A stretch of 64,000 nucleotides of DNA from Magnetovibrio sp. (GTDB lineage Bacteria > Pseudomonadota > Alphaproteobacteria > Rhodospirillales > Casp-alpha2). Below, in pieces: positions 5,801 to 27,893 of the stretch (the stretch's first letter is position 1; every line of letters starts with the position of its first letter). The notes below the pieces were generated by a model. The model was not told the origin of the DNA. It saw only the letters and a list, made by a program, of their open reading frames with translations, and did not search any database. A program made the translations under genes and the position numbers. Location of the stretch: contig NZFO01000006.1 of the NCBI GenBank assembly GCA_002690705.1, positions 62,001 through 126,000 of the forward strand, read 5' to 3'.

Positions 5801-6652
5801 TTATTCCGCTGCTGCTGACGAATTATCTTCTCTATGGAAGCTTTTCATTGCTTCTTCATGCAAAATTTCCATCGCTTCTCGTTTATATTCATAAGCTTCA
5901 GGGCTGCTTAGCATGTGAAAATCTCGGGGACGCGGTAGCTCAATATCGATGATGGATCGAACAGAAGTTGGCCGATTTGACAAGATAATCAATCTATCTG
6001 CAAGATAAATGGCTTCCTCAATTTCTGAAGTAACGAACAGGTTGGTTTTCTGGTTTTCTTCAAATAACCGTACAAAAAATTCCTGCATGAGCTCGCGAGA
6101 CATTGCGTCTAAACCACGAAACGGTTCGTCCATGATCATGACCAGTGGATTGTTAATCATTGCGCGCGCTAGCTCCGCTCGGCGTTGCATGCCGCCGGAG
6201 AGCTGAATTGGGTACTTTTCTTTGAATTCTGCAAGACCGACTTTGTCGAGGAGCCGATTAGCTTCTGCTTCGACCTCCTCAGCTGTGCGATCACCACGGA
6301 GATTTGGTCCAAATACCACATTTTCAAGAGTTGTTTGCCACGGAATTAACGCTGTTTCTTGAAAGACCACCATGCGATCGTTACCCGGATCTGTAATTTT
6401 TTTGCTATTGAGTAATATTTCGCCCGCATCCGGCCTATCGAACCCGGCAATCAGATTGACTAATGTTGACTTTCCGCACCCAGATGGACCAACGATTACC
6501 GTTAATTGGCTGGGATTAACTGTGAGAGATAGATCTTTTATTATTTCCTCCCGCTCCCATTCATCACCGAATGTACGACTAATATTTCTGAGTTCTAAAG
6601 TCGCTTTATTATCGGAGGGTAAGTTCGATTGATTTGTTTGTTGGGTATTCAT
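5801..6652 (-). CDS. SsuB/TauB-type ABC importer ATPase, H-loop His replaced by Ser
   Basis: A 283-residue ATPase of the nitrate/sulfonate/taurine importer family. It has Walker A GPSGCGKS (55-62), a good signature LSGGMQRR (151-158) and Walker B MIMDEP with Glu176. The switch histidine is missing: canonical VTHD reads VTSE here, with Ser209. A strong AGGAGGG lies before the ATG and overlaps the stop of the upstream permease. It is the second of two ATPases in the operon; its paralogue has the opposite defect pattern, which suggests the two form a heterodimer. The family is certain; the substrate is unknown. Confidence 0.93.
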   Translation of the reverse strand: MNTQQTNQSNLPSDNKATLELRNISRTFGDEWEREEIIKDLSLTVNPSQLTVIVGPSGCGKSTLVNLIAGFDRPDAGEILLNSKKITDPGNDRMVVFQETALIPWQTTLENVVFGPNLRGDRTAEEVEAEANRLLDKVGLAEFKEKYPIQLSGGMQRRAELARAMINNPLVMIMDEPFRGLDAMSRELMQEFFVRLFEENQKTNLFVTSEIEEAIYLADRLIILSNRPTSVRSIIDIELPRPRDFHMLSSPEAYEYKREAMEILHEEAMKSFHREDNSSAAAE

Positions 6653-6662
6653 GATTTCCCTC

Positions 6663-7547
6663 CTAAAACAGTCGGCGCCATGGCATCGAAATACTACCTA
6701 AGTATCGGATCAGCGAACTGGACAGGTATCCGGCGATACCAATCGAAATCATACCAACAATCACTTGCGCAACCGTACCTCCCATGTACGAGCTCCAAAT
6801 AAAGAACCCCAGCCCGCCGCCACCTTGTTGCCCCCCACCAGAAATCATCTCACCAGCAAGAACAACTTCCCAAGTTATACCCATGCCAACTGCGGCCCCC
6901 GTGAAAATTGAAGGCAGAGTGCCGGGTAAGATAATCTTACGAAATAAATCCCATTGTGATGCCCCCATCGACTGAGCGGCGCGAAGAAACCGTATATCAA
7001 TACTTTTGGCACCACCTAAAACGTTAATAACGATGGTGAAGAAAGCTCCAAGAAAAGTGACAAACGCGATCGAAAGCTCCGTGGTAGGCCAAAAAACGAT
7101 AGATGCTGGGACCCAAGCCAACGGAGGAATCGGGCGAAGTACCTCAAACGGAGGAAAGAAAATGTCATGAAAATACCTATTCACCGCAAGGCATAGGCCA
7201 AATGGAATTCCTAAGAGCATCGCGGCAATAAACCCTGCAAATACCCGCCCAGTACTTAGGTACCAGCTTTCCCAATAGCCTGGCAGCCAGAAAATTTCTG
7301 TCCAGGCTTCTAAAACTTCTGTCGGTGGGGGGACTTTGCCGATCCATGGCACTTCCACGCCTGTCCACTGTTTCATTCGCGAGCAGATTTCCCAAAAAAC
7401 CACAAACCCTATTAGAGAGACTACGCCGCGCCAAAAGGTGTCACTGGACAACGCCTTTAATATCTTTGAGCGTTTTTTTGGCGTGTTCGATACCCCACTT
7501 GAGCCGGGTTTGTGGGGAGCAATTGTATCTTGAGCAGCTTGTGTCAT
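6663..7547 (-). CDS. SsuC/TauC-type ABC importer permease (second copy)
   Basis: A 294-residue inner-membrane permease with about six hydrophobic segments after a polar N-terminus (residues 1-35). It carries the family region that docks the ATPase (MGASQWDLFRKIILPGTLPSI), followed by GAAVGMGITWEVVLAGEM. A glycine-rich stretch (SGGGQQGGGGLG) follows. It is a divergent paralogue of the permease at 8433-9311 in the same operon, so the transporter membrane unit may be a heterodimer. AGAGAAG upstream supports the start. Confidence 0.92.
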   Translation of the reverse strand: MTQAAQDTIAPHKPGSSGVSNTPKKRSKILKALSSDTFWRGVVSLIGFVVFWEICSRMKQWTGVEVPWIGKVPPPTEVLEAWTEIFWLPGYWESWYLSTGRVFAGFIAAMLLGIPFGLCLAVNRYFHDIFFPPFEVLRPIPPLAWVPASIVFWPTTELSIAFVTFLGAFFTIVINVLGGAKSIDIRFLRAAQSMGASQWDLFRKIILPGTLPSIFTGAAVGMGITWEVVLAGEMISGGGQQGGGGLGFFIWSSYMGGTVAQVIVGMISIGIAGYLSSSLIRYLGSISMPWRRLF

Positions 7548-7591
7548 CTTTACTTCTCTGTGTTACTTCCTAATCTATAAAATGCTTAGCT

Positions 7592-8431
7592 TCAGGCTAA
7601 TTCCCGTTCACCAGCTTCAAAGGCCTTAACGGCTTCCTCGTGCACAGCATCCTTTGCCTCTTGCACCAATTCTCTAAAGCGGTTTGATGATAACGTCGTA
7701 TAGTCTCTAGGCCGCGGGATATCTACATCTACTATTTTTTTGGTTTTTGCCGGTCGTGTGGTCATTACAACAACACGATCACCAAGAAAAATAGCCTCCT
7801 CAAGGTCGTGAGTGATGAAAAAAATTGTTACCTTGGTTCGGTCATAAACCTCCAGAAGGGATTCGTGCATTATTGATTTTGTGAGCGCGTCCATTGCTCG
7901 ATAAGGCTCATCAAGTAATAGTACTCTTGGGTCGTTAATTAGCGCCCGGACGATCTCAGCACGACGTGCCATGCCCGAGGAGACTTCCCCTGGGTATTTT
8001 TTTGCCATATCCCCAATGCCAGCCTCTGATAACATCGTACCAGCTTTGTCAATGGCTTCCGCTTTACTCATCGCTCCTTGAACAATTGGTCCATAAGCAA
8101 CATTTTCAGCGAGTGTTTTCCATGGAAATAGTGCGCCGTGTTGGAAAACAACCATTCTATCCGCACCCTGATTTGCAAGGGGCCTATCTGGTCCACACAA
8201 CATCTCCCCATCGAGATAAATTTCACCCTCGGTGATTGAGTGAAAGCCTGCGATAGCATTAAGTAGTGTCGTTTTGCCGCACCCTGAAGGCCCGACAATC
8301 ATGCAAACTTCTCCGGCTCCAATTTCCAATGAACAATCATCTACCGCCATAACGTTAACCCCCTCAGGGTCATATATTTTCGTTACGTTGCGGATACTGA
8401 TCGCGCCCCGATTACTGCTTGCAGAAGTCAT
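7592..8431 (-). CDS. SsuB/TauB-type ABC importer ATPase, degenerate signature motif
   Basis: A 279-residue ATPase with Walker A GPSGCGKT (47-54), Walker B LLLDEP (Glu175) and an intact H-loop ITHD (His208). Its signature is degenerate: VSSGMARR (150-157) where the family has LSGGMQRR. The ATG at 8431 is chosen because AAGGAAG lies 6-7 bases upstream and the upstream permease stops 1 base away; an in-frame TTG 15 bases earlier lacks this support. With the ATPase at 5801-6652 it would make one consensus and one degenerate ATP site. It imports the ligand of the periplasmic protein at 9433-10554. Confidence 0.93.
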   Translation of the reverse strand: MTSASSNRGAISIRNVTKIYDPEGVNVMAVDDCSLEIGAGEVCMIVGPSGCGKTTLLNAIAGFHSITEGEIYLDGEMLCGPDRPLANQGADRMVVFQHGALFPWKTLAENVAYGPIVQGAMSKAEAIDKAGTMLSEAGIGDMAKKYPGEVSSGMARRAEIVRALINDPRVLLLDEPYRAMDALTKSIMHESLLEVYDRTKVTIFFITHDLEEAIFLGDRVVVMTTRPAKTKKIVDVDIPRPRDYTTLSSNRFRELVQEAKDAVHEEAVKAFEAGERELA

Positions 8432-8432
8432 G

Positions 8433-9311
8433 CTATCTTCCTTCAAGAGCGAGTGCGCGAACCCGCCATTGCATTAAACGATTGCCGGCGATCCGAACTA
8501 GTGCAGATGAGAGCCAGCCAACAAATCCAAGCGTGAGCATGGCAATAACCATAATTACATAAGTTATATTCATGTAAGCGTCGACGATCAGATACCCTAG
8601 GCCAAATTCGCCCGAGACCATCTCCGCTGCAACTAGCGAGAACCATGCTACCCCGATACTTATTTGGAGGCCTGTAAAAATAAATGGTAATGCCCCGGGC
8701 ACAACTATGTGCATGAAAACATGATGGGGTTTTGACCCAAGACAGTTAGCTGCGCGAAAATATTCTTCATCTATCGAGTCAACACCCAAGAGTGTATTCA
8801 GCGTTGTAACGAATAAAGAGGCCAAAGTCGCCAAATAAATGACGGGTGTTTCCAATCCAGAAAACATCAAAATGGCAAGCGGTACCCAAGCTAATATTGG
8901 TATTGGTCGCAACGTCTCAAGGATGGGAAAGCTGTAATCGCGAAAAGTCTTTGACCAGCCCATGAATAGCCCTAGAGGAACCCCTACTCCCGTGGCTATT
9001 GCAAATGCGATAAGAATTCTCCGACAACTTACGAAAACATGGTCGTAAAACTCTGCGGTGAAGAGCGACATACCCCAATCTGGATCGGGGTTTAAAAATT
9101 CAGTGATTACCTCTACTGGCCCCGGCAGCTTATTAAAACGAGGCAATTCCCAACCTTCAACGAATAAGTAATAGGCGCCAATCCACAGGAATATTCCAAA
9201 CGTCATCAGATAAGGTGTGGGAGATTTCAGTGAGGTCCCCCAATCATAAATAGTCCGCGTAAGGCCAGTGGGTGGTTTTTTTGTTTGAGTTGTCGAGGTT
9301 GTATCGGTCAT
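8433..9311 (-). CDS. SsuC/TauC-type ABC importer permease (first copy)
   Basis: A 292-residue membrane protein with a polar N-terminus (about 30 residues, TTSTTQTKKPPTGL) and about six hydrophobic segments. The ATPase-coupling loop reads ANCLGSKPHHVFMHIVVPGA, equivalent to the EAA loop of this family. It is the first importer membrane gene after the binding protein and is separated from it by a hairpin with a T-run. Its paralogue lies two genes downstream. Confidence 0.92.
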   Translation of the reverse strand: MTDTTSTTQTKKPPTGLTRTIYDWGTSLKSPTPYLMTFGIFLWIGAYYLFVEGWELPRFNKLPGPVEVITEFLNPDPDWGMSLFTAEFYDHVFVSCRRILIAFAIATGVGVPLGLFMGWSKTFRDYSFPILETLRPIPILAWVPLAILMFSGLETPVIYLATLASLFVTTLNTLLGVDSIDEEYFRAANCLGSKPHHVFMHIVVPGALPFIFTGLQISIGVAWFSLVAAEMVSGEFGLGYLIVDAYMNITYVIMVIAMLTLGFVGWLSSALVRIAGNRLMQWRVRALALEGR

Positions 9312-9432: not shown

Positions 9433-10554
9433 TTACGGCTTGTAATTTGATAGTGGAACGCCGTCGATTTTGCCCAATGGGCTTGAAAGCCCTCGTGATT
9501 TGAGAACCTCGCGGGCTACGCCGTCCCAAACTGCTTCCTTACGTAATTGCTTCCGCTTACCAAATTTCTTCTTACCGGCAAGAAAAGCCGCGGAGGCCTT
9601 GAGCATAGTCTTGACTTTATCATTAAACACAAAATCAAGCGTCAATTTGTTAGCGCCAGACTCGTCGCGATAAAGAGACGCCCAGAGTACTTTTCGCTCC
9701 ATGCCTTCCGTCTGATTATCAGCCATTTCTGCGACTGCGTTTGCATTAGCTGGGTTAGCCAAGAAAATTTGCGCGTCTAACTCAGCCTCAAGCCAGCCGC
9801 GATGTACGTCCGGGCGTGTTTCAATGAGTTCATTCATCATTACAAGAAAACCAGCATCGCCAGAGTCGTCACCAGCAAAGTCAGCACCAGTGGCTGCTCG
9901 ACGCGCTATGCCCTTCATTTCAATCTTGGAAGCAGTCGGCTCCCAGATCGCAGCCCCTTGAATTTTTCCTGCTTGAAGATTTTTGGTAATGTTTTCTATG
10001 TTCTGATTAAGGTACTTGGACGGCTTGATCCCAGCTTGTTCGAACGCTAGAAGAGCGAATCGATCAGTGCATGCGCCATGCGGGGCTGCAATCAATTTGC
10101 CATCCATCCACTTGACCGCATCCATACCTGAATTGAATTTTGGCGCATTGTTTGGTACTAAAAAGATATTGCACTGTTGCTTGGATGTTCCCAACACCGA
10201 GATCATCCGTATATCAACTTTCTTCTCGCGCATGGAGGCAACAATGGCGGGCATGTCGCCCATGTAACCAATGTGATTTTTCTCTCCCAGCATTTTACCA
10301 ACGATCACTGAACCTTGCAGGCCAATCTCAAATTTTGCGGATGAACCTGCGGGAAGATGCTTTTTCCACAGCTGTTTGCCATTGACCACAACTCCGGACC
10401 ATGACTCTGTATAGTATGGTTGATAACCGATAACAACATTGACGGGTTCGCCTGGTTTGCCAAATCCAACTTCGGACTTTGCCCCGTTTGTCGCACCAAA
10501 TGCCAGAGCAGCGACCATCGCCACCCCAAAAGTCTTCAAAAATTTATATTTCAT
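9433..10554 (-). CDS. Periplasmic substrate-binding protein of an SsuA/TauA/NMT1-like importer
   Basis: A 373-residue exported protein. A signal peptide is visible (basic MKYKFLK, hydrophobic FGVAMVAALAFG, likely cleavage near TNGA). The mature protein follows the two-lobe NMT1/SsuA pattern: VNVVIGYQPYY early, then GYMGDMPAIVASM and IQGAAIWEPTA. The ATG at 10554 has GGGAGG 10 bases upstream; a longer reading adds no signal-peptide-like sequence. It is the first gene of the importer operon and lies divergent from the oxygenase cluster, so its ligand is a good candidate for the oxygenase substrate. Relatives bind sulfonates, nitrate, thiamine precursors and aromatics, so the class of ligand is open. 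Confidence 0.92.
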   Translation of the reverse strand: MKYKFLKTFGVAMVAALAFGATNGAKSEVGFGKPGEPVNVVIGYQPYYTESWSGVVVNGKQLWKKHLPAGSSAKFEIGLQGSVIVGKMLGEKNHIGYMGDMPAIVASMREKKVDIRMISVLGTSKQQCNIFLVPNNAPKFNSGMDAVKWMDGKLIAAPHGACTDRFALLAFEQAGIKPSKYLNQNIENITKNLQAGKIQGAAIWEPTASKIEMKGIARRAATGADFAGDDSGDAGFLVMMNELIETRPDVHRGWLEAELDAQIFLANPANANAVAEMADNQTEGMERKVLWASLYRDESGANKLTLDFVFNDKVKTMLKASAAFLAGKKKFGKRKQLRKEAVWDGVAREVLKSRGLSSPLGKIDGVPLSNYKP

Positions 10555-11262
10555 TACAGCAACCTCCCAGTTTGGCTGAAAAGAGGCGGGGGGCTGGAAG
10601 AAATTCGCCGACCGCCGCAATCTTGATTTTGATATTAACCCGATTGTACAGAAGATGTAACGCTTATCTAATTAAAAGCGTGGCCTTAATCAATCAAACT
10701 CCTAACACAATCACTACACCCCGACAAATGTTTTAACAAGGTTATGATTGGGCGCACTGATAGTTGATCAATGCAAATCCAAATTAACTGTTAATTGATA
10801 ACCGTAACCTATTAAATACTAAAAAACCCTGCTTTTTTGGGCTAGGTAGCCGTGATATCTTCATTGATTGTGTTTGCCGGGACTAAAACTTTATTAACAA
10901 TCAAAGTCTCCAAACTCAAACTAATGATGCACATCAAGTATGTGTAAAACGAAATGCAGTCTTTAATTTTCCTCCCACGCTAAGGGCCTTTTTTGTTTCA
11001 ATATTCCCAGTACTACTCGGCTCACGGCTAACTATTTTGAAGACATCTGATATCTAGTTTGAGGCCATCTATCAAATGATAGAAGATTTAAGTTTTACGA
11101 ATGAAAAAAGGTTAGGAATATTAGGAGGGTGGCAAGAGGTGTTCAACCTCAGCCTACATAAAGATCAATAGCCAATAAAAAATTTCAGTAAACTTGAAAA
11201 TTAACTTTCAAACTTAGGGCTGAAAAACACATTTAAGTTTGCTGTGAGGAGAAGTCATTCCG
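10555..11262. promoter_or_regulatory. Divergent control region between importer and oxygenase operons
   Basis: This 700-base AT-rich region holds the promoters of both operons. Perfect dyads seen are TTGATCAA (10764-10771), AATTAAC-T-GTTAATT (10782-10796) and TTGAAA-ATTAAC-TTTCAA (11194-11211). Any could be an operator. No gene was found. No regulator gene is adjacent; the nearest is the LysR gene at 1312. Confidence 0.45.
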
Positions 11263-11292
11263 ATGTCGTCACTATTTAGAGTAAGTCCATGA
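11263..11292 (+). CDS. Possible 9-residue leader peptide coupled to the oxygenase gene
   Basis: ATG at 11263 opens a nine-codon reading frame (MSSLFRVSP) whose TGA overlaps the ATG of the Rieske fusion gene as ATGA. AGGAG lies 11 bases before this ATG, whereas the fusion gene itself has only a weak site. Translation of the mini-frame could deliver ribosomes to the fusion start. This is inferred from arrangement and may be chance. Confidence 0.35.
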   Translation: MSSLFRVSP

Positions 11293-13862
11293 GCAAATCC
11301 TCTTCGCAATTTGTAGACAGCAGAATTTTCTCTGATCCAGAGATTTTTGAAGATGAACTCGAATATATCTTTAAACAGGTGTGGGTTCCCGTCTGTCATG
11401 AGTCGGAAGTTGCGCAACCTTATGATTTTCGCACCACCAGTATAGCGCGTGAGAATATTTTAGTGGTAAGAGCGCATGATAATAAAGTGAATGCTTTTTT
11501 GAACGTTTGTCCCCATCGGGGCATGCTAATCGAGCGGAGACCTCAGGGTAGTTTTCTCGAGGGACAGCCCTCAGGCAACCCAAAACGTATCACATGCATG
11601 TTTCATGCTTGGCAGTTCGATATGCGCGGGAATTGTGTCTACGTTGCGCGGGAAAAAGAAGGATATCAAGATAGATTTTCAAAAAATGATGCTGGGCTCA
11701 GACGTTTGCGTTGTGAGGTCAAGTATGGGGGATTTGTCTGGGTCAATTTAAACGATCAACCACAAATTTCGCTGGAAGAATGGGTAGGTGATGCTCTCGA
11801 AGATATGAGCGTTTCCATCGAGCACAGTCCACTAGAAGTTTTCCATTACCATAAAGCGGTTCTTGGCAGAAACTACAAAGAAAATCACGATGATTTGATC
11901 AAATTTAGGCAAAATATTACCAATAAACTAAAGATAAATGACGGTTTAAGTGAAGGTTCCAGTAATAGCAGATTAAGACACCTAGGCTTTGGGCATGTGA
12001 TAAGCGGGATGCTCCGAAGACAGCATCAGGGCGAAGAGGTTAGCAGACTATACGGTGAGCTTTTAGATTGGGCTCACACTACTCAATTACCGCTGAGATC
12101 TGATAAATTGGACGAGCAGTTGCAACGCATTTCAGCGATGATGAAGTCTGAAATTAAAGAAATTATTAAGGCTAACGCACCGGATCAGGAAAAGGTCCGA
12201 GAGAGCGAAACAACGCATAATTTATCGTTCCCAAACATGAAACGAGGGGAATGGTTGATAGTCGACCTTTTTCCTGGCTTTCATTTTACTATTCACGGAT
12301 CCGCTTTGAGCGTAATGACAGTTACTCCACTGGCACCTGATGAAGTAATGCTCGAAGTCCGTGGGTTAGGTCTAAAAGGGGATACAGAGGGTATTCGGTC
12401 CAAGAGGATTAGTGACCACAATGAGGTGTGGAGTCCCCTGAATATTGGTTTGCCAGCTTGGCAGAGAGACAGTGATCTCGAAGAACAAGGGAACGACGAA
12501 CAGTATTTTCGGCAATATTACAATGAATGGGGGCGTATTATGGATCGTCTGCCATCCAATGTAGACGAGAAATTTCTGGCACCTCCCACCGATGTAGCGA
12601 CCACTCCTCCGTCCAAAAAAAGAATATTTGAACGTCCCGGTCTTCATGTTGTCGTAATCGGGGCAAGTCATGCAGGAATTAATGTTGCTGATAAGATGCG
12701 CAAGAACGGATTTGACGGCAACATAACAATTCTTGACCGTCAAAGCGGAGGACCAATGGAGCGACCCCCGCTTTCAAAAGCTTTTCTTCTAGAGTCAGAT
12801 CAGAAGTCCAACTCTAACTACCTTTTAAAACAGAAAAAGTGGTATAGAACCAATGACATAAGGCTGAGAACGAAAACTAGTGTAGAAAAAATTAATCTCG
12901 AAACCAAAAAGCTCATACTTAACGATGGAGAACAGATCCAATTTGATAAACTTGTTATAGCCAGTGGGGCTGTACCTCGGACGCTTCCGATCGCTGAGGG
13001 TATCGGGAATGTTTTCGTTTTAAGGCAGCCGTCCGATGCAATTTCTATTCGTAAGCAAGCTTCGGCTGCGAAAAAAATAATTATTATCGGTGGTGGTTAT
13101 ATTGGTCTTGAGGTTGCCGCCTCTCTTAGGAAAAAGGGCCTTGATATCGATGTTGTGGAAGTCGCTGACAGGATACTTGCAAGGGTTGCAAGTGCTCCTG
13201 CGGCGAATTTTTTAGCTGATTTGCACACTAGCCACGGTGTCTCTTTGCTTACTGGTAAAGGAGTGGATGAAATTATTGAGCAAAATGGCGTATTTGCAGG
13301 CGTAAAACTATCAGACGGCACAGCGCTATCGGGGGACATGCTCCTGATTGGTATAGGGGTTCTTCCAGATAGTAAATTAGCGTATGAGGCAGGGTTAGAT
13401 ACACTTATGGATGATGGCGGTGCTATTTTGGTTGACGAAAATATGTATACCAGCCATCCGGACGTATTGGCAGTAGGTGATGTTGCTCTGCTCCGTGGGC
13501 AAAAAGCAACCGTGGAGTCCGTCCACAATGCTCAGGAAACCTCAGCCGTAGCCGCGGCAACTCTCACAAAAGCAACGCCTCCAATGATCCAAGCCCCCTG
13601 GTTTTGGTCAGACCAATACGATACTAAGCTGCAATCTGTTGGTATTGTGCCGGTAGGCGATGAGCGAGTGTATCAAATCTCCCGGCCGGGAAAGCGGGAG
13701 GGGGGAATTTCATTCTGGAGTTACCGAGAAAACGATTTAGTTGCGGTTGAGGTTTTTAGTGATCCAGCAACATATATGGAGGCCAAGCAATGTCTTGATA
13801 CAGGCCGGTCACCAGATCCTAATTTGATTGGTGATTCCTCATTTTCTCCGATTAGTCATTAA
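11289..13862 (+). CDS. Rieske oxygenase alpha subunit (iron site lost) fused to FAD ferredoxin reductase
   Basis: The 857-residue protein joins two enzymes. Residues 20-430 are a ring-hydroxylating oxygenase alpha subunit. It has Rieske ligands Cys74/His76 (CPHRG) and Cys103/His106 (CMFHAW), with 26 residues between the pairs instead of the usual 17. The mononuclear iron motif is gone: NYKENHDDLIKFRQNI stands where the second alpha subunit (16379-17473) has a Glu/His-rich motif, and LPAW replaces its HED. An extra helical, charged stretch fills about 210-310. Residues 450-857 are a putidaredoxin-reductase-like flavoprotein: FAD motif GASHAG (458-463), NAD motif GGGYIG (601-606), FAD motif VGDVA (729-733), and a reductase C-terminal domain. 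It probably carries electrons from NAD(P)H to a partner oxygenase. Confidence 0.88.
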   Translation: MSKSSSQFVDSRIFSDPEIFEDELEYIFKQVWVPVCHESEVAQPYDFRTTSIARENILVVRAHDNKVNAFLNVCPHRGMLIERRPQGSFLEGQPSGNPKRITCMFHAWQFDMRGNCVYVAREKEGYQDRFSKNDAGLRRLRCEVKYGGFVWVNLNDQPQISLEEWVGDALEDMSVSIEHSPLEVFHYHKAVLGRNYKENHDDLIKFRQNITNKLKINDGLSEGSSNSRLRHLGFGHVISGMLRRQHQGEEVSRLYGELLDWAHTTQLPLRSDKLDEQLQRISAMMKSEIKEIIKANAPDQEKVRESETTHNLSFPNMKRGEWLIVDLFPGFHFTIHGSALSVMTVTPLAPDEVMLEVRGLGLKGDTEGIRSKRISDHNEVWSPLNIGLPAWQRDSDLEEQGNDEQYFRQYYNEWGRIMDRLPSNVDEKFLAPPTDVATTPPSKKRIFERPGLHVVVIGASHAGINVADKMRKNGFDGNITILDRQSGGPMERPPLSKAFLLESDQKSNSNYLLKQKKWYRTNDIRLRTKTSVEKINLETKKLILNDGEQIQFDKLVIASGAVPRTLPIAEGIGNVFVLRQPSDAISIRKQASAAKKIIIIGGGYIGLEVAASLRKKGLDIDVVEVADRILARVASAPAANFLADLHTSHGVSLLTGKGVDEIIEQNGVFAGVKLSDGTALSGDMLLIGIGVLPDSKLAYEAGLDTLMDDGGAILVDENMYTSHPDVLAVGDVALLRGQKATVESVHNAQETSAVAAATLTKATPPMIQAPWFWSDQYDTKLQSVGIVPVGDERVYQISRPGKREGGISFWSYRENDLVAVEVFSDPATYMEAKQCLDTGRSPDPNLIGDSSFSPISH

Positions 13863-13911
13863 TGGCGAGCCATGGTATATTACTGAAGCTATATGAGGGG
13901 ATAAAACCACT

Positions 13912-13960
13912 AAATCACACCATTCTAGCGTAATTCTGGGCATATTTGGAATGGTGATTT
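13912..13960 (+). other. Stem-loop between the fusion gene and beta subunit gene
   Basis: AAATCAC(AC)CATTC pairs with GAATGGTGATTT, a 12-base stem with a two-base bulge and a 23-base loop. No T-run follows, so it is more likely an mRNA-stability or processing element than a terminator. Confidence 0.35.
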
Positions 13961-14043
13961 AACTGATTGAACAACACACTCATAGTGAACTTGGCACATA
14001 ATCCCAAAGATGTTGGAAGTCGAAGAGCGGCAAAGGAATAAGT

Positions 14044-14532
14044 ATGGATTTGGATTTAGAAAAACAAATTGAAAGAACAATTTACAGGGCTGCTTTAGCC
14101 CTCGATACTCAGCAATGGAATGATTGGTTTGCGCTTTGTGATGAAAAATTTGAATATGCGATAACCTCCTTTAGCCCTGAGATTAATAAGGACATGATTT
14201 ATTTTTCAGGTGATAAAAAAGAACTCAAAGGATTGATGGATATGCTTCCAAAGCATAACACCGATCATTCGCCACTCCATCGCCATACCTCTGTGTATAC
14301 GATTGATGTTGCGAAAAATGGAGAGACGGCGACAGCAGTAAGCTCAGTTATTGTATACCAAAACATGCTGGATGGGCAGAATTCTCATTTAGATTCGGGG
14401 GAGAGCCGTCTTTTCGTGATAGGACACTATCATGACAAATTCATTATAAAAGATGGCATGGCTAAATTTGCACATCGTGAGGCCAAACTAGACAATCGTC
14501 GCCTAGATAAGGGCTCCCATTGGCCTATCTGA
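14044..14532 (+). CDS. Ring-hydroxylating oxygenase beta subunit
   Basis: A 162-residue SnoaL/NTF2-like small subunit. The N-terminal helix pattern IERTIYRAALALDTQQWNDW and the C-terminal REAKLDNRR are typical of oxygenase beta subunits. Such subunits are structural and build alpha3-beta3 assemblies. AAAGGAA is well placed before the ATG. It follows the Rieske fusion gene by 181 bases and precedes a Rieske ferredoxin gene, so the encoded multicomponent oxygenase has alpha, beta, ferredoxin and reductase parts. Which alpha subunit it pairs with cannot be told from sequence. Confidence 0.88.
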   Translation: MDLDLEKQIERTIYRAALALDTQQWNDWFALCDEKFEYAITSFSPEINKDMIYFSGDKKELKGLMDMLPKHNTDHSPLHRHTSVYTIDVAKNGETATAVSSVIVYQNMLDGQNSHLDSGESRLFVIGHYHDKFIIKDGMAKFAHREAKLDNRRLDKGSHWPI

Positions 14533-14600
14533 ATTTCGAAAAACTTTTGATAACTCGATACTAAATGTCAATTCCATCAGCGAGATGAGGGGCCAGTAAA

Positions 14601-15002
14601 ATGAGCTGGACGAAGGTATGTACAATCGACGAAGTTCCGCAGGGCTCAATAAAACGTATGTGGGCAAGAGTTAACGCGGGGGTTCCACTTTTAATAGTTC
14701 ATCATAGTTCAGGGTTTACCGCTCTGCCCCCGATTTGTCCCCATTTAGAGGAGCCATTGGAGGAATCTGGGACTATTATTGGCTGCAAATTGACCTGCAC
14801 TAAACACCTATGGTCGTGGGACCTTGACACAATGGAATTGCAGGATGAAGCGGAATTACCCCTGAAGACCTACGAGACAAAGGTTGATGGTGATACTCTC
14901 ATGGTATTCGTTGCGGAGGAACTCGAATATAATTTTGATGAGGAAGGCGATATCGATGAGGATGAGTTCTTTAGCGATGAACATGAAGATGACGAATGGT
15001 AA
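14601..15002 (+). CDS. Rieske-type [2Fe-2S] ferredoxin with long acidic tail
   Basis: A 133-residue protein with a complete Rieske motif, Cys-Pro-His, 17 residues, then Cys-x2-His (CPH... CTKHLWSWD), as in the ferredoxins that shuttle electrons from reductase to oxygenase. GAGGGG lies upstream of the ATG. The last 30 or so residues are almost purely acidic (FDEEGDIDEDEFFSDEHEDD), beyond the usual length of about 105. The tail could steer docking to a basic partner; that is inference. It is the separate soluble carrier of a system whose reductase is fused to an alpha subunit. Confidence 0.88.
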   Translation: MSWTKVCTIDEVPQGSIKRMWARVNAGVPLLIVHHSSGFTALPPICPHLEEPLEESGTIIGCKLTCTKHLWSWDLDTMELQDEAELPLKTYETKVDGDTLMVFVAEELEYNFDEEGDIDEDEFFSDEHEDDEW

Positions 15003-15164
15003 AACTATAAAAAACTAATTTTGTCGTGGATTGAGGTATAGCTTAGTTAAGTTTCCAAGATAGGCTCTTGATTGTGAAAAAATCTATGTGCACTTCCGTT
15101 CCAGTTTATGCTCTTAGCTCTTGCAAGTCAGTCGTGAAGGGTCCTTTTTAATTATGGGGAGCGG

Positions 15165-15362
15165 ATGAGTAACCCAGTGCTCGCTTATCCCAAGTGTTTA
15201 CATCAGTGTTTAGAAGGAAAAGAGACCAGAGAATTGTGTGCGGTTCCTGAGTCAATGACGCTATCTGCAGCTACAGGCTATGAGATAACAATTCCGCTCT
15301 CATGCCGAGCCATTCAGCTCAGAACGAAACCGTATTATTTAAAATACAGTGTATGGAGTTAA
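15165..15362 (+). CDS. Short hypothetical ORF overlapping the next gene start
   Basis: A 65-residue reading frame with GGGGAG close before its ATG. It ends in TAA ten bases after the next gene's likely ATG (15353), so the two could be coupled. The sequence (five cysteines, no clear domain) is not recognised. It may be a real small protein, a leader, or the eroded N-terminal part of the following gene. Confidence 0.35.
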   Translation: MSNPVLAYPKCLHQCLEGKETRELCAVPESMTLSAATGYEITIPLSCRAIQLRTKPYYLKYSVWS

Positions 15363-16183
15363 GTGTGTCTTCCGGTTGGCCTGATACATCGATATTTGGA
15401 TTGAAAAAGTACAGAAGGGCGCGTTTTGAGGCTCATAATGCCCTTTTCTGGATGGCTCGGGGTGTGAATAGTTATCGTGAAAAGGAGGACAATAATAAGC
15501 ATCTGGAATTGATGTGGGAAACGTCTACCAGCACGCTGAAAACGAGGGTATTTTGCGACAATCTTCAAGTCGGACTTAATTTCTTGGAGCTTGAGATATA
15601 TTTTTGTGAGGATGGAAAAAAGGTAAAACATAGCTTTTGGTTTGATGAGCGCACACCTGCATACGTAGAGGCCTGGTATTTGGTAGAGTTATTGCACCGT
15701 GAAAAGGATCAAAATAAATTCTCTACAGAGCTGCCTTTTCACTCTGATAATTTTTTTCTCGGTGATACTGAAGAGCACAATGCGTCAAGCTTGCAGCCTG
15801 AGCTAAGGGCTTTACACAATTGCTTTACCAAAGGTGCAGATATTTTATCTCAAGTGCAGTTGGATGCGGCTGCAGATAGAGAAGCATTGGGCGAAGAGTA
15901 CTCTCTAAGTGTCCAGCCAGAGACTTTCACGCTTGGTTTTGAGTTGTGTTCACTGACCGACAACGGAACAAAAATTGTAGTTGGATTGAGTGCTGGAGAT
16001 AATCTCAGACCAGCACCGTTTTTCTTTGTTAGTGCAAACCGAGCTAATCGAGATAAGAAATCTCATGTGCTTGATTTTAAACCAGAAAATCTTTTATTTC
16101 TCAACACAATTAATGACAAGCGGATGAACAACAAAGACATTATCGATATTTTATTTCGTCAGGTAAAAAATTTGGCCGGATGA
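15353..16183 (+). CDS. Hypothetical protein within the oxygenase operon
   Basis: A 276-residue protein (or 293 if an ATG at 15302 is used) that I do not recognise. It is soluble-looking, with no signal peptide or membrane segment, rich in aromatic and charged residues. The first 110 residues look beta-rich with alternating patterns (LKTRVFCDNLQVGLNFLELEIYF); the C-terminal third contains TFTLGFELCSL and IVVGLSAGD. It has no Rieske, flavin or metal motif. Both starts lack a good ribosome site, so coupling to the preceding short frame is plausible. Its place between the ferredoxin and second alpha subunit suggests an accessory, assembly or substrate-handling role, which is inference. Confidence 0.65.
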   Translation: MELSVSSGWPDTSIFGLKKYRRARFEAHNALFWMARGVNSYREKEDNNKHLELMWETSTSTLKTRVFCDNLQVGLNFLELEIYFCEDGKKVKHSFWFDERTPAYVEAWYLVELLHREKDQNKFSTELPFHSDNFFLGDTEEHNASSLQPELRALHNCFTKGADILSQVQLDAAADREALGEEYSLSVQPETFTLGFELCSLTDNGTKIVVGLSAGDNLRPAPFFFVSANRANRDKKSHVLDFKPENLLFLNTINDKRMNNKDIIDILFRQVKNLAG

Positions 16184-16378
16184 GGTTATCGGTCTGTGTA
16201 ATTTTCAATCTGATGCAAGGTTGGCGGAGAGGTAAATAATATTTTGTAAAAAATAAATAAATAAAGACTAGGTTCCGCAGTAATATATGTTATATTTGTA
16301 ATATAGAGCAGCGTGGGTGTATGTCGTTGATATCGCCGCTGATTCTGTTACCTACCTTGTTATGAAACGGAGAACACT

Positions 16379-17473
16379 ATGCCACCAAGAAATCACAAAA
16401 ACTGGTTAGCAACGCCTGACATAGAGCATATTTCGAGCGAGTGTTACAACAACTACGAGGTTTATCAGCAAGAGTTGGAACATATTTTTTCTAAAGTATG
16501 GATTCCAATGTGCCATAAAAGTGAGATGCCAAAGGCAAACGATTTCCGGTCAACTCAAATCGCTCATCGGAATGTTGTCGCGGTAAATCATGAGGGCGAA
16601 TTTAAGGTCTACCTATGCCCGTTGGTAGATCGTCCGTCTGGTAACGGCATCTCAGTAGAAGGGCTCACGGAATTGCACAGTGGTGTGCAACACGGAGGCA
16701 TGATTTGGGTGACCTTAGACCCCAATCCAGTTCAAAGTATTGATGAATGGACGGCTGGAGCTTTCGATTGCATCGCAGACGCGATTGATACAGAAGAAAT
16801 GGAAATATTCCATTACCACAAAGCAATTATTGAGACCAACTACAAGCTGTGGCATGACACAAACAGTGAGTTTTATCATGACTTTATGCACTACCATAAT
16901 CGCGTAACGGGATTTAACGAGGCCTATTTTGCTCGTAAGAATATTCCTTTTGCAAATGGACACGTAAATGTGAGTAGCTTTACAGTAAACTATGAGGAAT
17001 ACGAGGGTTTTGAGGATCGTGGAGAGTTATCTTTTCCCAATCTTCCCCCAAATCAATGGTACATGGTCGATTTGTTTCCCGGCTTTAACTTTAACCTAAG
17101 AGGTAGCGCATACCGCAGTGACTCAGTCACACCCCTTGGCCCAAATAAAGTACTCATCGAGTTTCGTGGCTATGGACTCAAGAAAGATACACCCGAAGAG
17201 AGGGCGACCAGAATAGAGCATCACAATTCAATTTGGGGGCCTTTCGGGCGTAATCTTCACGAAGATTTGATTGGTGTTGCCGGGCAAGGCACAACAATGC
17301 GCGAAGGGACGGAGGTGCGAAATATTTTGCATGGTCGACATGAAAATTCAACTATTCACGATGAAGTTGGAATGCGGCATTACTACGAAGAGTGGGGTAA
17401 GCATCTCGGAGTAACCCCAATGAATCCTTTAGCAATGCTTGAGCAAAATGATACGGTAATCGCAGCAGAGTAA
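16379..17473 (+). CDS. Oxygenase alpha subunit lacking the Rieske cluster site
   Basis: A 364-residue protein co-linear with the alpha part of the fusion protein at 11289-13862 (shared blocks: IF-KVWIPMCHKSE, FHYHKAI, LSFPN, VDLFPGF, EFRGYGLK, YYEEWG). The segment carrying the Rieske ligands is deleted: VYLCPLVDRPSGN runs straight into the region after the cluster, with only one Cys left. The catalytic part keeps a plausible mononuclear iron site: Glu164 and His167 in SEFYHDFMHYH, with His171 or His173, and Asp296 in RNLHED. It should therefore bind iron and substrate but need electrons from another protein's Rieske centre. GGAGA precedes the ATG, and a strong terminator follows. Confidence 0.87.
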   Translation: MPPRNHKNWLATPDIEHISSECYNNYEVYQQELEHIFSKVWIPMCHKSEMPKANDFRSTQIAHRNVVAVNHEGEFKVYLCPLVDRPSGNGISVEGLTELHSGVQHGGMIWVTLDPNPVQSIDEWTAGAFDCIADAIDTEEMEIFHYHKAIIETNYKLWHDTNSEFYHDFMHYHNRVTGFNEAYFARKNIPFANGHVNVSSFTVNYEEYEGFEDRGELSFPNLPPNQWYMVDLFPGFNFNLRGSAYRSDSVTPLGPNKVLIEFRGYGLKKDTPEERATRIEHHNSIWGPFGRNLHEDLIGVAGQGTTMREGTEVRNILHGRHENSTIHDEVGMRHYYEEWGKHLGVTPMNPLAMLEQNDTVIAAE

Positions 17474-17492
17474 TATTTGCTGAATTTGTTAT

Positions 17493-17530
17493 AAAAAGGC
17501 TAGTGGCTATCGAGTGTCCTAGCCTTTTTT
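17493..17530 (+). terminator. Intrinsic terminator after the Rieske-less alpha gene
   Basis: AAAAAGGCTAG and CTAGCCTTTTT form a perfect stem of 11 bases with a 15-base loop, ending in a T-run. It should end the oxygenase transcript, leaving the GcvT/FolD/OsmC genes to a separate promoter or to read-through. Confidence 0.85.
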
Positions 17531-17589
17531 ATTGTTCTAAAGCTAACTACTTTAGAGCGTATTCTGGAAAAAAAGTGAAATAGAGCGGT

Positions 17590-17610
17590 TTCGATTTTAT
17601 CGAGATCGAA
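17590..17610. promoter_or_regulatory. Small inverted repeat before the GcvT-like gene
   Basis: TTCGAT and ATCGAA are separated by 9 bases and end 8 bases before the GTG start. It could be an operator or a translation-blocking hairpin; the short arms make chance possible. Confidence 0.25.
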
Positions 17611-17618
17611 TTCAGTTA

Positions 17619-18644
17619 GTGCCATACTTAAACCACTCAAATTATCAAATCCCAAATCCGCCCCCTCGTGGCTTTAAAACGGATGTAATGCCTATTTTTT
17701 TCAGTAATATAGAGGACGAAGTTAATGCTTGCTGTCACAATGCTGCCATTTTTGATTATTCATTTTTACTGCGCATTGAGATCAAAGGATTAGGAGCCCT
17801 CGGCGTTATTTCCACAATCTGCGCACGAAACTTTAATACGATGCCCATCGGCAGTATCCGTTATGCGTTGTTCAGCGATGAGGACGGTTGGCTGATATCG
17901 GATCTGACAGTGTGGCGAACTGCAATAGACACAGTCGAGGTTATGTCGGGGCGTGCTGAGGATATAGATTACATCAAACTCAAGTGTTTGGGTAAAAATG
18001 TAATTTTACGTGATCTATCAGACGGAACGGCATGTATCGCCCTGCAAGGGCCAGCGACAAATAAAATCATATCCCAGTTTCGTGGTGGTGACGAAGTTTT
18101 AAATATCGCTTTTTTCAAATTTGCGGACATAAAATTGCACTCCTTATCGTGCAGGGTTGGTCGCATAGGGTATACTGGGTTGGAGGGTATAGAAATTTTG
18201 TGCTCACCGTCCGATGCGGGACAAATCTGGTCGGTGTTGAAGGCGTGCGCCCTCCCCTCCGGTTTTATTGCGGCAGACCGCTTGCGTCTAAGAGCTGGAC
18301 TACCGTTATTCAGTAAAGAATTCCATCCGCCAGTTGGACCAGCAGACGTTGGATTAAGTCGGATTAGGCCGGGGAGTGTAATTCCTGCACGAGTCAGAAG
18401 ATTGTGCTTTTCGGCGAACCTGCGTCGGGGGAAAGCTACAGATGATGTCTTGAGGGAGATTGAATGGTCACCTCAAAAACCCTTTCCCCCAAAAGACAGT
18501 GAAATTGCAATCACGTCAATTCAACGCAATTCGGAAATAAATAGAGTTGTAGGTATGGGGTACGCAGCGATAGGTGGGTCTATCTCTCAACTTTCGGTTA
18601 TATCCGGAGAGCTTAGCAACATTAATGTAAATCGTTGCTTTTAA
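17619..18644 (+). CDS. GcvT-like aminomethyltransferase / folate-binding family protein
   Basis: A 341-residue member of the glycine-cleavage T-protein superfamily, which moves a methyl or methylene group onto tetrahydrofolate. Visible family blocks are IRYALFSDEDGWLISDL, CIALQGPAT, RVGRIGYTGLEGIEI and DRLRLRAGLPLFSKEF. The GTG at 17619 gives a natural N-terminus but has only a weak ribosome site; an ATG 23 codons later is possible. FolD follows 30 bases downstream. Relatives include dimethylglycine/sarcosine enzymes, LigM O-demethylases and DmdA. No GcvH or GcvP is present, so this is not a normal glycine cleavage operon. It probably receives the C1 unit of the adjacent oxygenase reaction or demethylates its product. 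Confidence 0.82.
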   Translation: MPYLNHSNYQIPNPPPRGFKTDVMPIFFSNIEDEVNACCHNAAIFDYSFLLRIEIKGLGALGVISTICARNFNTMPIGSIRYALFSDEDGWLISDLTVWRTAIDTVEVMSGRAEDIDYIKLKCLGKNVILRDLSDGTACIALQGPATNKIISQFRGGDEVLNIAFFKFADIKLHSLSCRVGRIGYTGLEGIEILCSPSDAGQIWSVLKACALPSGFIAADRLRLRAGLPLFSKEFHPPVGPADVGLSRIRPGSVIPARVRRLCFSANLRRGKATDDVLREIEWSPQKPFPPKDSEIAITSIQRNSEINRVVGMGYAAIGGSISQLSVISGELSNINVNRCF

Positions 18645-18674
18645 AATAAACCTGTTAACCATGGAGAATCGACT

Positions 18675-19604
18675 ATGGCGCAAGTTCAAGCAATATCAAA
18701 TGACCACAAGTTAATCGATGGTCGCGCACATGCCGCTCGTATGATTGAGGATCTAAAGTTAGATGTCAGGGACCTCGACTCAAAGGGTTGGCGCCCCCAT
18801 TTGATATCGGTGACCGTTGGTGAGGTAGATGAAGTGGGTCTTTATGTTCGTAATCAGCGGCTCAACGCAGAGAAAGCTGGGATCGAATTCCAAGAGAGGA
18901 ACTTTCCTGCGAGCGTAACTGAAGCTGAACTCCTCGCGGCTATCGAGAGCATGAATGTTGACCCGCGTATTACTGGAATAATAATGCAAAGGCCGGTTCC
19001 TAATCATATCTCAGTCCATGCTTTGCAGGAGGCCGTGCACCCACTGAAAGACGTGGAAGGTATGCACCCCTCCTCTATAGGAAAGATAGTCTACCAAAAC
19101 CTTGAGACTGGGCCATGTACTGCCTTGGCAGCGGTGGAGTTGCTGAAAACAACAGGCCTTGAATTAGCGGGCCTTGAGGTGGTTATGGTTGGGCATTCGG
19201 AGATTGTTGGTAAGCCGATTGCATTTTTACTAATGGCTGAGGGCGCAACAGTCACAGTCTGTCACCATAGGACCCGCAATCTTGCTGTCCATTCTCGCCA
19301 AGCTGATGCAGTTTTTGTTGCCGCTGGGAAGCCCAACCTAATTACTCAAGAAATGATAAAACCCGGCGCGGTTGTTATCGATATTGGTATCAATCAGGTT
19401 GATCAACCTGAGGGCAAGTCAAAAGTTGTTGGTGATGTGGATTTTGCATCATGTGCCGATGTAGCAGGATGGATTACGCCGGTGCCCGGAGGTGTCGGGC
19501 CAGTGACGGTAGCTGTGCTTATGCGGAATGCAGTTATTGCTACGCAGCGGCAAAAAACACATTACGAGGTATTGCTCGCACGCTCAACAAAGGCTTTACA
19601 ATAG
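18675..19604 (+). CDS. folD: FolD-family methylene-THF dehydrogenase with substituted catalytic residues
   Basis: A 309-residue homologue of bifunctional FolD, which oxidises 5,10-methylene-THF to methenyl-THF and hydrolyses that to 10-formyl-THF. The dinucleotide site is intact (GHSEIVGKPIAF, PVPGGVGPVTVA). In the active site Tyr57 and Gln105 (MQRPVP) remain, but the lysine four residues after the tyrosine is Gln61 (YVRNQ) and the Asp of the KDVDG motif is Glu128 (KDVEG). That lysine is central to cyclohydrolase chemistry in characterised enzymes, so this may be mainly a dehydrogenase or an enzyme for a modified folate. GGAG precedes the ATG. It is in one run with the GcvT-like and OsmC genes. 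Confidence 0.88.
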   Translation: MAQVQAISNDHKLIDGRAHAARMIEDLKLDVRDLDSKGWRPHLISVTVGEVDEVGLYVRNQRLNAEKAGIEFQERNFPASVTEAELLAAIESMNVDPRITGIIMQRPVPNHISVHALQEAVHPLKDVEGMHPSSIGKIVYQNLETGPCTALAAVELLKTTGLELAGLEVVMVGHSEIVGKPIAFLLMAEGATVTVCHHRTRNLAVHSRQADAVFVAAGKPNLITQEMIKPGAVVIDIGINQVDQPEGKSKVVGDVDFASCADVAGWITPVPGGVGPVTVAVLMRNAVIATQRQKTHYEVLLARSTKALQ

Positions 19605-19642
19605 ACAATGCTGAGACGCGTGATGCCTTGGAGGCTATGAAA

Positions 19643-20215
19643 ATGTCTGATTTGGAAAGAAAATCTGATAAAAATGAAGGTTCCTCTATTGATGTAAACG
19701 AGCGGTTTAGAGATTTGTTTAAACGGTGCCAGAAAAGGTTGCGTGACGGCTCCATGACTAATGTTATTACAGTGAATGTGTGTAGCGAGAACCAAGGTGG
19801 TTTTGAGAGCTACTTGAAAATCCGCGATTTTGACATGACTATCGATCAGCCATTTGGGTTTGAAGGGGGTAACAAAGGTCCAAAACCTAGTGAGGTCCTG
19901 TTAGCGTCTCTCGCGGCGTGTCAGGAAGTAACATGGCGGCTCTACGCTGCAGCTAATGGTATCAAATTGGATGGTATTCGGGTGGAGTTGACTGGTACAC
20001 AAGATTTACGGGGTTTTTTGGACGTCGCAAAACATGTACCAGCTGGTTTTGAGGAAATTGCCGGTACAGTTTATTTGGAGAGTCCGGCCAGTGAGGAGGA
20101 TATATGCCGATTGCAGGAGGTTGTTGATGCTCATTGCCCTGTGCTGGATGACTTACGCCGGCCTGTTTCGGTGTCATTGAACGTACAAAGGGGTAGCTCT
20201 TCTTCTAAAGGGTGA
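19643..20215 (+). CDS. OsmC-family protein
   Basis: A 190-residue OsmC/Ohr-type protein with the two redox cysteines in family context: one in LAACQEVTW, the other in AHCPVLDDL. Members reduce organic hydroperoxides using these thiols. The second ATG of a close pair (19643) is chosen because GGAGG lies 8 bases upstream; the first ATG (19637) is only 2 bases from it. The first 45 residues before the domain are charged and poorly conserved. It closes the GcvT-FolD-OsmC run, and could protect against peroxide formed by an uncoupled oxygenase, which is inference. Confidence 0.85.
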   Translation: MSDLERKSDKNEGSSIDVNERFRDLFKRCQKRLRDGSMTNVITVNVCSENQGGFESYLKIRDFDMTIDQPFGFEGGNKGPKPSEVLLASLAACQEVTWRLYAAANGIKLDGIRVELTGTQDLRGFLDVAKHVPAGFEEIAGTVYLESPASEEDICRLQEVVDAHCPVLDDLRRPVSVSLNVQRGSSSSKG

Positions 20216-27234: not shown

Positions 27235-27274
27235 GGCTTGTTTACATTCTGCTATCAGCAGAGCAGCGTAATTT

Positions 27275-27302
27275 GACTTGGGTGCCTTAGGGGACCCAAG
27301 TC
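27275..27302 (+). other. Stem-loop between binding-protein and TctB genes
   Basis: GACTTGGGT and ACCCAAGTC form a perfect 9-base stem with a 10-base loop. There is no T-run, so it is probably a stabilising or processing hairpin that favours binding-protein expression rather than a terminator. Confidence 0.5.
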
Positions 27303-27323
27303 ATTATCTGAGGAACAGCAATC

Positions 27324-27875
27324 ATGGCCAACAATTTTAAAGCTGTTTTGGCGCCCGTGCTTTGGGTTGTTTTTGGAATAGTCGGACTACTAATTACTCT
27401 AGATTACATGGGTCCACTTCCGACATTTGAGTTGGGCGCGGCTTTCTGGCCCCAAGTGATTCTCGTGGGCATTATCCTGGTGTCGTTTATTCAGATCCTT
27501 TCTATCTTTTTCTCCCGCAGCACAACCAATCAAATAACTTCTGATCCATTGCTTAATGGGGAGGCGCAAAGCCTCAAAGAGGCGGATGAAGCGGTATTTC
27601 TCAATGTAAATGTGCGAACGTTGGCCATTTTTTTATTACCTCTTGTTTACGTGTACGGTATGCACCAGTTTGGTTTTTTTCTTGTCACACCAGTCTTTTT
27701 GCCCTTGTATATGTATGTGATGGGCGTACGGGAGGTGAAAAAAATATTTTTTGTTTCTCTTGGCTTTTACGGAATGATCATATTTTTATTTGTACACTTG
27801 GTCTTTACGCCCTTACCGCAGGGTGCTGGTGCTTTTCACTCTTTAAATGGCCAATTTCTCTCTTTTTTTCAGTGA
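27324..27875 (+). CDS. Tripartite tricarboxylate transporter small membrane subunit (TctB family)
   Basis: A 183-residue protein with four hydrophobic segments (about residues 5-25, 38-62, 92-112 and 120-160), the normal TctB topology, with a polar linker around residues 65-90. It lies between the binding protein and the large TctA subunit with 18 bases before the latter. It is poorly conserved in sequence, as usual for TctB. Confidence 0.88.
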   Translation: MANNFKAVLAPVLWVVFGIVGLLITLDYMGPLPTFELGAAFWPQVILVGIILVSFIQILSIFFSRSTTNQITSDPLLNGEAQSLKEADEAVFLNVNVRTLAIFLLPLVYVYGMHQFGFFLVTPVFLPLYMYVMGVREVKKIFFVSLGFYGMIIFLFVHLVFTPLPQGAGAFHSLNGQFLSFFQ

Positions 27876-27893
27876 TTTGTGTGATTTATCGAC

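Follow-up and report, generated by a model that had tools for sequence, protein, structure and literature searches.

Two alpha subunits at a split msm locus

We analysed a 64,000-nucleotide stretch of DNA from Magnetovibrio sp. (contig NZFO01000006.1 of assembly GCA_002690705.1, positions 62,001 to 126,000 of the forward strand), hereafter the window, which contains two genes for alpha subunits of an MsmA-related Rieske oxygenase, each keeping one of the two metal sites of the ordinary enzyme. The first gene (11289..13862, + strand) encodes an 857-residue fusion in which an MsmA-like alpha part (approximately residues 1-440) is joined to a flavin adenine dinucleotide (FAD) ferredoxin reductase (residues 453-852). 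The fusion keeps the Rieske ligands C74, H76, C103 and H106 as a CxH-X26-CxxH motif (CPH...CMFH with a 26-residue spacer, codons 74-106, 11508..11606, + strand), and its iron site is absent, the motif being replaced by NYKENHDDLIKFRQNI and LPAW. The second gene (16379..17473, + strand; Pfam Ring_hydroxyl_A, 5.7e-6) encodes a 364-residue catalytic alpha that has no CxH/CxxH motif and contains both RNLHED and the iron-binding region NYKLWHDTNSEFYHDFMHYH (codons 154-173, 16838..16897, + strand), with E164, H167, H171 and D296 as its iron-region residues and E164 occupying the position of the bridging acid. Judged by ligand residues, neither protein combines a Rieske centre and a mononuclear iron in one alpha chain, and both centres are present across the pair. 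An earlier note on this DNA had described the complementary losses in the two genes, and its coordinates and residues were correct.

The same note had called the two alphas paralogues, and so they are by sequence: the local alignment of the window fusion with the Rieske-less alpha scores 432, against a mean of 37 (standard deviation 5, maximum 57) in 200 shuffles. Pfam recognises Rieske (residues 32-120), Pyr_redox_2 (453-750) and Reductase_C (771-852) domains in the fusion. The nearest NCBIfam model for its reductase is HcaD, below the cut-off, and the predicted model of the fusion (mean predicted local distance difference test score (pLDDT) 75.6, predicted template modelling score (pTM) 0.49) matches the folds of ferredoxin reductases such as 3fg2, putidaredoxin reductase and BphA4 at Z of about 40-43; the reductase part is of the BphA4/HcaD type. 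For the Rieske-less alpha, Ring_hydroxyl_A is the only Pfam match. Its predicted model (mean pLDDT 86, pTM 0.86) matches alpha chains of Rieske oxygenases at Z 31-32 over 310-327 aligned residues in the best rows, and the best match, 7c8z (Z 31.9, 310 residues, 2.8 Å), spans nearly the whole length (approximately residues 14-350). An alpha-subunit fold is predicted for this protein by its model, and indicated for the alpha part of the fusion by sequence.

The gene order on the + strand from 11289 to 19604 is fusion, beta subunit, ferredoxin, 293-residue protein, Rieske-less alpha, GcvT-like protein and FolD, with intergenic gaps of 181, 68, 299, 195, 145 and 30 nucleotides in that order. The MsmB-like oxygenase beta subunit (14044..14532, +; Pfam SnoaL_4 1.1e-9, Ring_hydroxyl_B 9.1e-8) is 74-82% identical to its homologues in the split loci where a beta is seen, and the separate MsmC-like Rieske ferredoxin (14601..15002, +; Pfam Rieske 6.4e-10, CxH/CxxH read from the sequence) keeps its position in split loci. 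The conserved 293-residue protein (15302..16183, +), of unassigned function, has no Pfam or NCBIfam match at E 0.1. Comparison of loci links it to msm genes, as its relatives lie in split loci and more distant ones in 15 of 52 ordinary msm loci; its profile, searched against the PDB, gave only designed proteins (best 3.8e-5) and weak matches to patched proteins, none of them a credible relative. It is probably an unrecognised msm accessory. Downstream of the Rieske-less alpha are two genes of one-carbon (C1) metabolism, encoding a GcvT-like folate-binding protein with a GTG start (17619..18644, +; Pfam GCV_T 2e-43) and, from family searches, the methylene-tetrahydrofolate dehydrogenase/cyclohydrolase FolD (18675..19604, +). 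An OsmC-like open reading frame (ORF) at 19451-20215 has its listed start inside folD, and its true start is probably further downstream. On the opposite strand, a divergent SsuA-family sulfonate-type substrate-binding protein (9433..10620, -; TIGR01728 7.3e-20, Pfam NMT1_2) occupies an MsmE-like position, its TIGR01728 score of 71 bits lying under the curated cut-off of 163.5. It adjoins two pairs of ATP-binding cassette (ABC) ATPase and permease genes (5801..9311, -), which from their translations are putatively involved in sulfonate uptake. Further away, three genes at 26206-29387 resemble, again from their translations, a TctABC-type tripartite carboxylate transporter.

Reciprocal loss and descent of the two forms

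We aligned 168 sequences: 54 ordinary MsmA (50 from a genome scan and four from relatives of the window genome), 100 Rieske-less alphas (17 bacterial, 83 viral or phage-like) and 14 fusions. Left out were L084, whose match starts at a contig edge, L089, whose match is broken, probably by a frameshift, the duplicates L103-L112, and, among the fusions, that of genome G076 together with a fragment and a second piece from G070. All four Rieske ligands are present in 14/14 fusions and 54/54 ordinary MsmA and in 0/100 Rieske-less alphas. E164, H167 and D296 are present in 100/100 Rieske-less alphas and 54/54 ordinary MsmA and in 0/14 fusions, and H171 is found in one of the 14 fusions. The complementary loss that the earlier note had read from a single locus is thus upheld across the whole alignment. 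The CXH-X26-CXXH spacer has been described as specific to MsmA (PMC4433239; the papers cited here are drawn on in excerpt), and the 26-residue spacer occurs in every fusion and every ordinary MsmA; the motif is absent from the second alpha.

Identity to ordinary MsmA follows the same division. With gaps counted as mismatches, the mean for the Rieske domain is 71% in the fusions, 15% in the bacterial and 16% in the viral Rieske-less alphas, and that for the catalytic domain is 31% in the fusions and 69% in both the bacterial and the viral Rieske-less alphas. Leaving gaps out gives 31% for the Rieske domain of the bacterial and of the viral Rieske-less group and 38% for the catalytic domain of the fusions, which is shortened in most of them. 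For comparison, ordinary MsmA are 79% and 78% identical to one another in the Rieske and catalytic domains, and the catalytic domains of bacterial and viral Rieske-less copies are 89% identical. We also made a simple Nei-Gojobori count of nonsynonymous (dN) and synonymous (dS) change on chosen pairs. In the five of six chosen fusion pairs with finite dS, dN/dS is approximately 0.01-0.02 for the Rieske domain and 0.11-0.22 for the catalytic-like domain; in 14 chosen pairs of Rieske-less alphas, dN of the catalytic domain is 0.007-0.115 against large or saturated synonymous change. Constraint is strong on the retained half of each protein and persists to some degree on the damaged half of the fusion.

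The iron motif holds two candidate second histidines, H171 and H173. H173 is replaced by Phe in 91 of the 100 Rieske-less copies (15/17 bacterial and 76/83 viral) and in 1/54 ordinary MsmA, and H171 is invariant in all 154 non-fusion sequences (54 ordinary and 100 Rieske-less). Because H173 is so often Phe while H171 never varies, the alignment makes H171 the likelier second iron ligand. H173 stays His in the window protein, in that of genome G087, in phage HMO-2011 and in six other viral copies, and the state of each viral copy is that of its nearest bacterial copy (83/83), an agreement that does not amount to an independent test. The predicted model of the Rieske-less alpha is weak at this motif (block-mean pLDDT 63 and 72). 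A first motif count had made most Rieske-less copies appear iron-free; this was rejected, as the pattern demanded H173 and the alignment shows E164, H167, H171 and D296 to be kept. E164 aligns, by phmmer, with the Asp at the bridging position of Rieske oxygenases, and this Asp bridges to the Rieske centre of the neighbouring subunit.

Phylogenetic trees of the two domains came from quick searches without bootstrap, and that of the Rieske domain is based on 98 columns with an outgroup that is not one clade. The Rieske-less alphas (17 bacterial and 31 of the 83 viral rows) form a single clade with a Shimodaira-Hasegawa-like approximate likelihood ratio test (SH-aLRT) support of 100, and the 14 fusions form a single clade with a support of 98. 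Within the former, viral and bacterial sequences are interleaved: the viral label requires four changes and the bacterial label three, of which well-supported branches force three and two, a pattern that suggests repeated movement of the gene between hosts and phages. Across 14 pairs, fusion and alpha distances are correlated (Mantel r 0.86, with 0/9999 permutations as high).

Occurrence in cellular genomes and phages

Sixteen genomes were reached from the first 17 Rieske-less loci, and 12 of them have the fusion or its two halves. In the remaining four, the contig starts inside the beta gene (G067), only an end part of the fusion is present at a contig end (G070), or the Rieske-less alpha lies on a phage-like contig of a genome bin in which the fusion was not found (G074 and G075). 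Two of the 12 fusion-bearing genomes are not from SAR116 bins: those of G066 and G068 bear the titles Planktomarina and Marinovum. We then surveyed the SAR116 family, to which G061 belongs (n = 61), counting only matches at E <= 1e-60 and scoring up to 15 first-look candidates per genome. Twelve genomes have the Rieske-less alpha, and 11 of these show the fusion, called when its alpha part and its reductase were both matched; the twelfth is the G070 fragment. The other 49 have neither gene, many having only separate reductases. In a sample of 385 genomes of the class (thresholds 1e-55 and 1e-60), three have both genes and none has one alone; one of the three is the window genome and the others share the coordinates of G087 and G071, so the sample adds absences and not new carriers. 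The two genes also occur together at a separation of approximately 11 kilobases (kb) on opposite strands, as in G071 (twice) and G073. A fusion had seemed absent near the Rieske-less loci L034, L036 and L080; this was rejected, as it lies about 11 kb away, beyond the first flank. In G073 (L197 14189-16575) the alpha part and the reductase are two ORFs overlapping by 4 nucleotides, representing either an unfused form or a frameshift. The earlier note had held that homologues of either gene commonly occurring alone would speak against an obligate pair. Neither gene was found by itself in our family or class survey. In viral contigs, by contrast, a lone iron subunit is common, which the note had not foreseen.

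The window genome has no match to ordinary MsmA and only one weak further match, and none was found in the 12 SAR116-family carriers at E <= 1e-20. Ordinary MsmA is present in the relatives G011, G013, G033 and G037, and in G011 and G033 a separate reductase of this type is encoded nearby. As the carriers searched have no ordinary MsmA and relatives do, the split pair seems to stand in for the ordinary enzyme. The window genome does not belong to the family of the other named carriers, and no match to the Rieske-less alpha was found in two further members of its genus, one of which is only 83% complete. Its Rieske-less alpha and split locus were likely gained by horizontal transfer.

A viral scan found at least 600 stretches that encode relatives of the Rieske-less alpha, of which we kept the best 80 (76-82% identity). 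The Rieske ligands are absent in all of these best 80 of at least 600, and in phage HMO-2011. In the viral loci examined, which cover 4-17 kb (median 9.3 kb) and could miss distant msm genes on the same contigs, we found no beta subunit, ferredoxin, 293-residue protein, GcvT or FolD at E 1e-4 and no match to the fusion outside the gene itself, so the iron subunit occurs there without the other parts. Scans of viral contigs with two fusion alpha parts and a beta likewise gave no relative, although scans of this kind detect nothing beyond close relatives. In a set of 82 viral or phage-like loci, HMO-2011 has at least two further genes in common with 18 and one with 23; these counts are unchanged when spurious ORFs inside the msm gene are excluded. 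Eight neighbour proteins were tested, with matches that include the lysozyme/endolysin, exonuclease, thymidylate synthase and DnaB-like helicase families. A phage collection gave as its only match two HMO-2011 records. One 316-kb IMG/VR contig (L117) has the Rieske-less alpha beside apparently metabolic genes and may be large phage or host sequence.

The HMO-2011 "msmA" resembles the second alpha of the window, being 72% identical, without Rieske ligands and with the iron residues kept; it differs in being annotated as a methanesulfonate monooxygenase by itself. No other part of the operon matches in the HMO-2011 genome at E <= 0.01. The recorded host of this phage is IMCC1322, which according to the excerpts of PMC4433239 has two MsmA annotations, one with the Rieske motif. 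The existence of Rieske-less MsmA in IMCC1322, in ocean data and in HMO-2011 is therefore already known from that source.

Proposed mechanism and its alternatives

Comparison of genomes strongly supports complementary loss, common ancestry and pairing of the two genes; that they also function jointly we infer. The obligate mixed oligomer proposed in the earlier note is supported in part. In the explanation that we consider probable, an MsmA-type oxygenase was split by duplication and complementary loss, the fusion and the Rieske-less alpha work in a mixed assembly, and phages supply the catalytic half. The fusion would have kept the Rieske [2Fe-2S] domain, lost the iron site and become joined to its own FAD reductase, and the second copy would have shed the cluster-binding subdomain while retaining the mononuclear iron site. 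In this scheme electrons would pass from reduced nicotinamide adenine dinucleotide (NADH) to the fused FAD domain, on to the small Rieske ferredoxin, to the Rieske centre of the fusion and finally to the iron of a neighbouring Rieske-less subunit. In known Rieske oxygenases the distance from Rieske centre to iron is approximately 12 Å to the next subunit versus 45 Å within a subunit (PMC12445004), and therefore copies with one centre each can still form a working pair. Transfer across the interface requires the bridging acid only in the iron copy, and E164 is kept only there. Together with the beta subunit, the mixed assembly would cleave methanesulfonate to formaldehyde and sulfite, a putative substrate suggested by the relationship to MsmA and by the flanking sulfonate uptake and C1 genes. 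In the operon of G087 (L198 5412-9999), translations point to a 962-residue oxidoreductase, an Fe-S protein and a membrane protein between the ferredoxin and the 293-residue gene. SAR116 papers, as excerpted, describe dmsABC near msmA, or a soeABC sulfite dehydrogenase; read in this way, the G087 genes would fit sulfite as the product.

Several observations weigh against this explanation. The domain trees attach the two forms at differing spots among ordinary MsmA, and because they give no common attachment point, a single duplication event is not proved. The parallel divergence of the two proteins may stem from common vertical descent alone. A three-membered ring cannot alternate two types of subunit evenly, which makes the stoichiometry of a mixed assembly unclear. 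The excerpted literature yielded no report of methanesulfonate growth by a carrier, and all proven methanesulfonate growers have the long-spacer Rieske motif (PMC4433239). The model of the fusion has block-mean pLDDT values of 39-57 across residues 71-130 with the low overall pTM given above, and its fold-search matches cover the reductase part only; the alpha identity of its N-terminal part therefore rests on sequence. Finally, the phmmer alignment to 9o71 places H173, and not H171, opposite the second histidine of that chain, and if H173 were the second ligand, the sites of 91/100 Rieske-less copies would be altered.

Known systems offer partial parallels. The window locus resembles MsmABCD in the 26-residue Rieske spacer of the fusion, in the catalytic domain of the second alpha group (approximately 69% identical, compared with 31% for the fusions) and in the beta, ferredoxin and sulfonate-type uptake genes. 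It differs in that the alpha is split over two genes and a BphA4/HcaD-type reductase is fused to the Rieske-bearing one. In the chlorophyllide a oxygenase of Micromonas pusilla (MpCAO), of which we know no reductase fusion and no phage copy, one chain carries the Rieske centre and the other the iron site. MpCAO is eukaryotic, and like the window pair it is one Rieske oxygenase in two polypeptide chains, for which a heterodimer or a trimer of dimers has been proposed (PMC9615114). The window pair shows complementary residues and co-occurrence, and would be a split of this kind if both chains prove to be needed. In the caffeine N7-demethylase NdmCDE, the reductase carries an additional Rieske cluster that serves a Rieske-less oxygenase (PMC4408171). 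In the window locus, by contrast, it is a second alpha-like subunit that bears the Rieske domain, and the ferredoxin persists as a separate protein. The fusion does carry Rieske and reductase domains together as in NdmCDE, but within an alpha-like chain, and we identified no partner resembling glutathione S-transferase in the split locus, where the 293-residue neighbour has no family match. NdmA and NdmB provide an alpha3alpha'3 example of two alpha types in one assembly (PMC12445004), although both are Rieske enzymes with non-heme iron (PMC4408171). We take the two-chain MpCAO and NdmCDE as precedents for the mechanism.

NdmCD also provides the main alternative to a mixed oligomer, that of an external carrier. 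The Rieske-less alpha would form its own alpha3beta3 assembly, and the fusion or the small ferredoxin would dock externally, in the space vacated by the lost cluster subdomain; the fusion would then serve the Rieske-less alpha as NdmD serves NdmC, as a Rieske-bearing reductase and not a subunit of the ring. The shortening and faster evolution of the catalytic-like domain of the fusion fit such a carrier, as do the separate overlapping ORFs of G073. We nevertheless regard it as unlikely, since this domain is under purifying selection (dN/dS of approximately 0.11-0.22), which would be needless in a mere carrier, and since a separate ferredoxin is still encoded; the retention of E164 in the Rieske-less alpha also speaks against it, though this residue fits both models. 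It is more doubtful still that the Rieske-less alpha is a Rieske-independent iron enzyme or has taken on a new role, with the fusion a separate redox protein and the co-occurrence a matter of linkage or a shared pathway only. Such independence would suit the solitary copies in the examined viral loci and HMO-2011 and the common H173F replacement. It sits poorly with a pair that persists across 11 kb and opposite strands, with an iron subunit so alike in bacteria and viruses that retains E164, and with the record of one Rieske-bearing and one Rieske-less MsmA in the HMO-2011 host IMCC1322 (PMC4433239). Decay or misassembly of both genes would account for the missing cofactor site in each and is rejected as extremely improbable, given open frames of 788-822 residues in 12 fusion copies from 11 other genomes and a dN/dS far below 1 in the retained halves.

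Returning to the split, mixed oxygenase, the ocean phages carry only the half that performs the chemistry and so would need the other half from the host to use it. The phage copy would supplement the host's catalytic subunit or take its place, and would depend on the host for everything else. We lean, with less confidence than for the split itself, towards phage copies that exchange as subunits into the Rieske-bearing, reductase-fused partner of the host and thereby take over methanesulfonate oxidation, as the phage subunit could not be reduced alone. In the excerpted literature we found no mention of the reciprocal loss with its missing iron site, the reductase fusion, the pairing or the one-sided inheritance by phages, which is not proof of absence. 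If the proposal is true, this would be a bacterial Rieske oxygenase in which electron transfer across subunits, a step that a ring of identical subunits ordinarily conceals, has been separated into two genes, so that either half could be altered and examined independently. A further consequence is that the viral "msmA" copies examined, which are without an electron-accepting centre, should not be counted as methanesulfonate oxidation unless the host has the partner.

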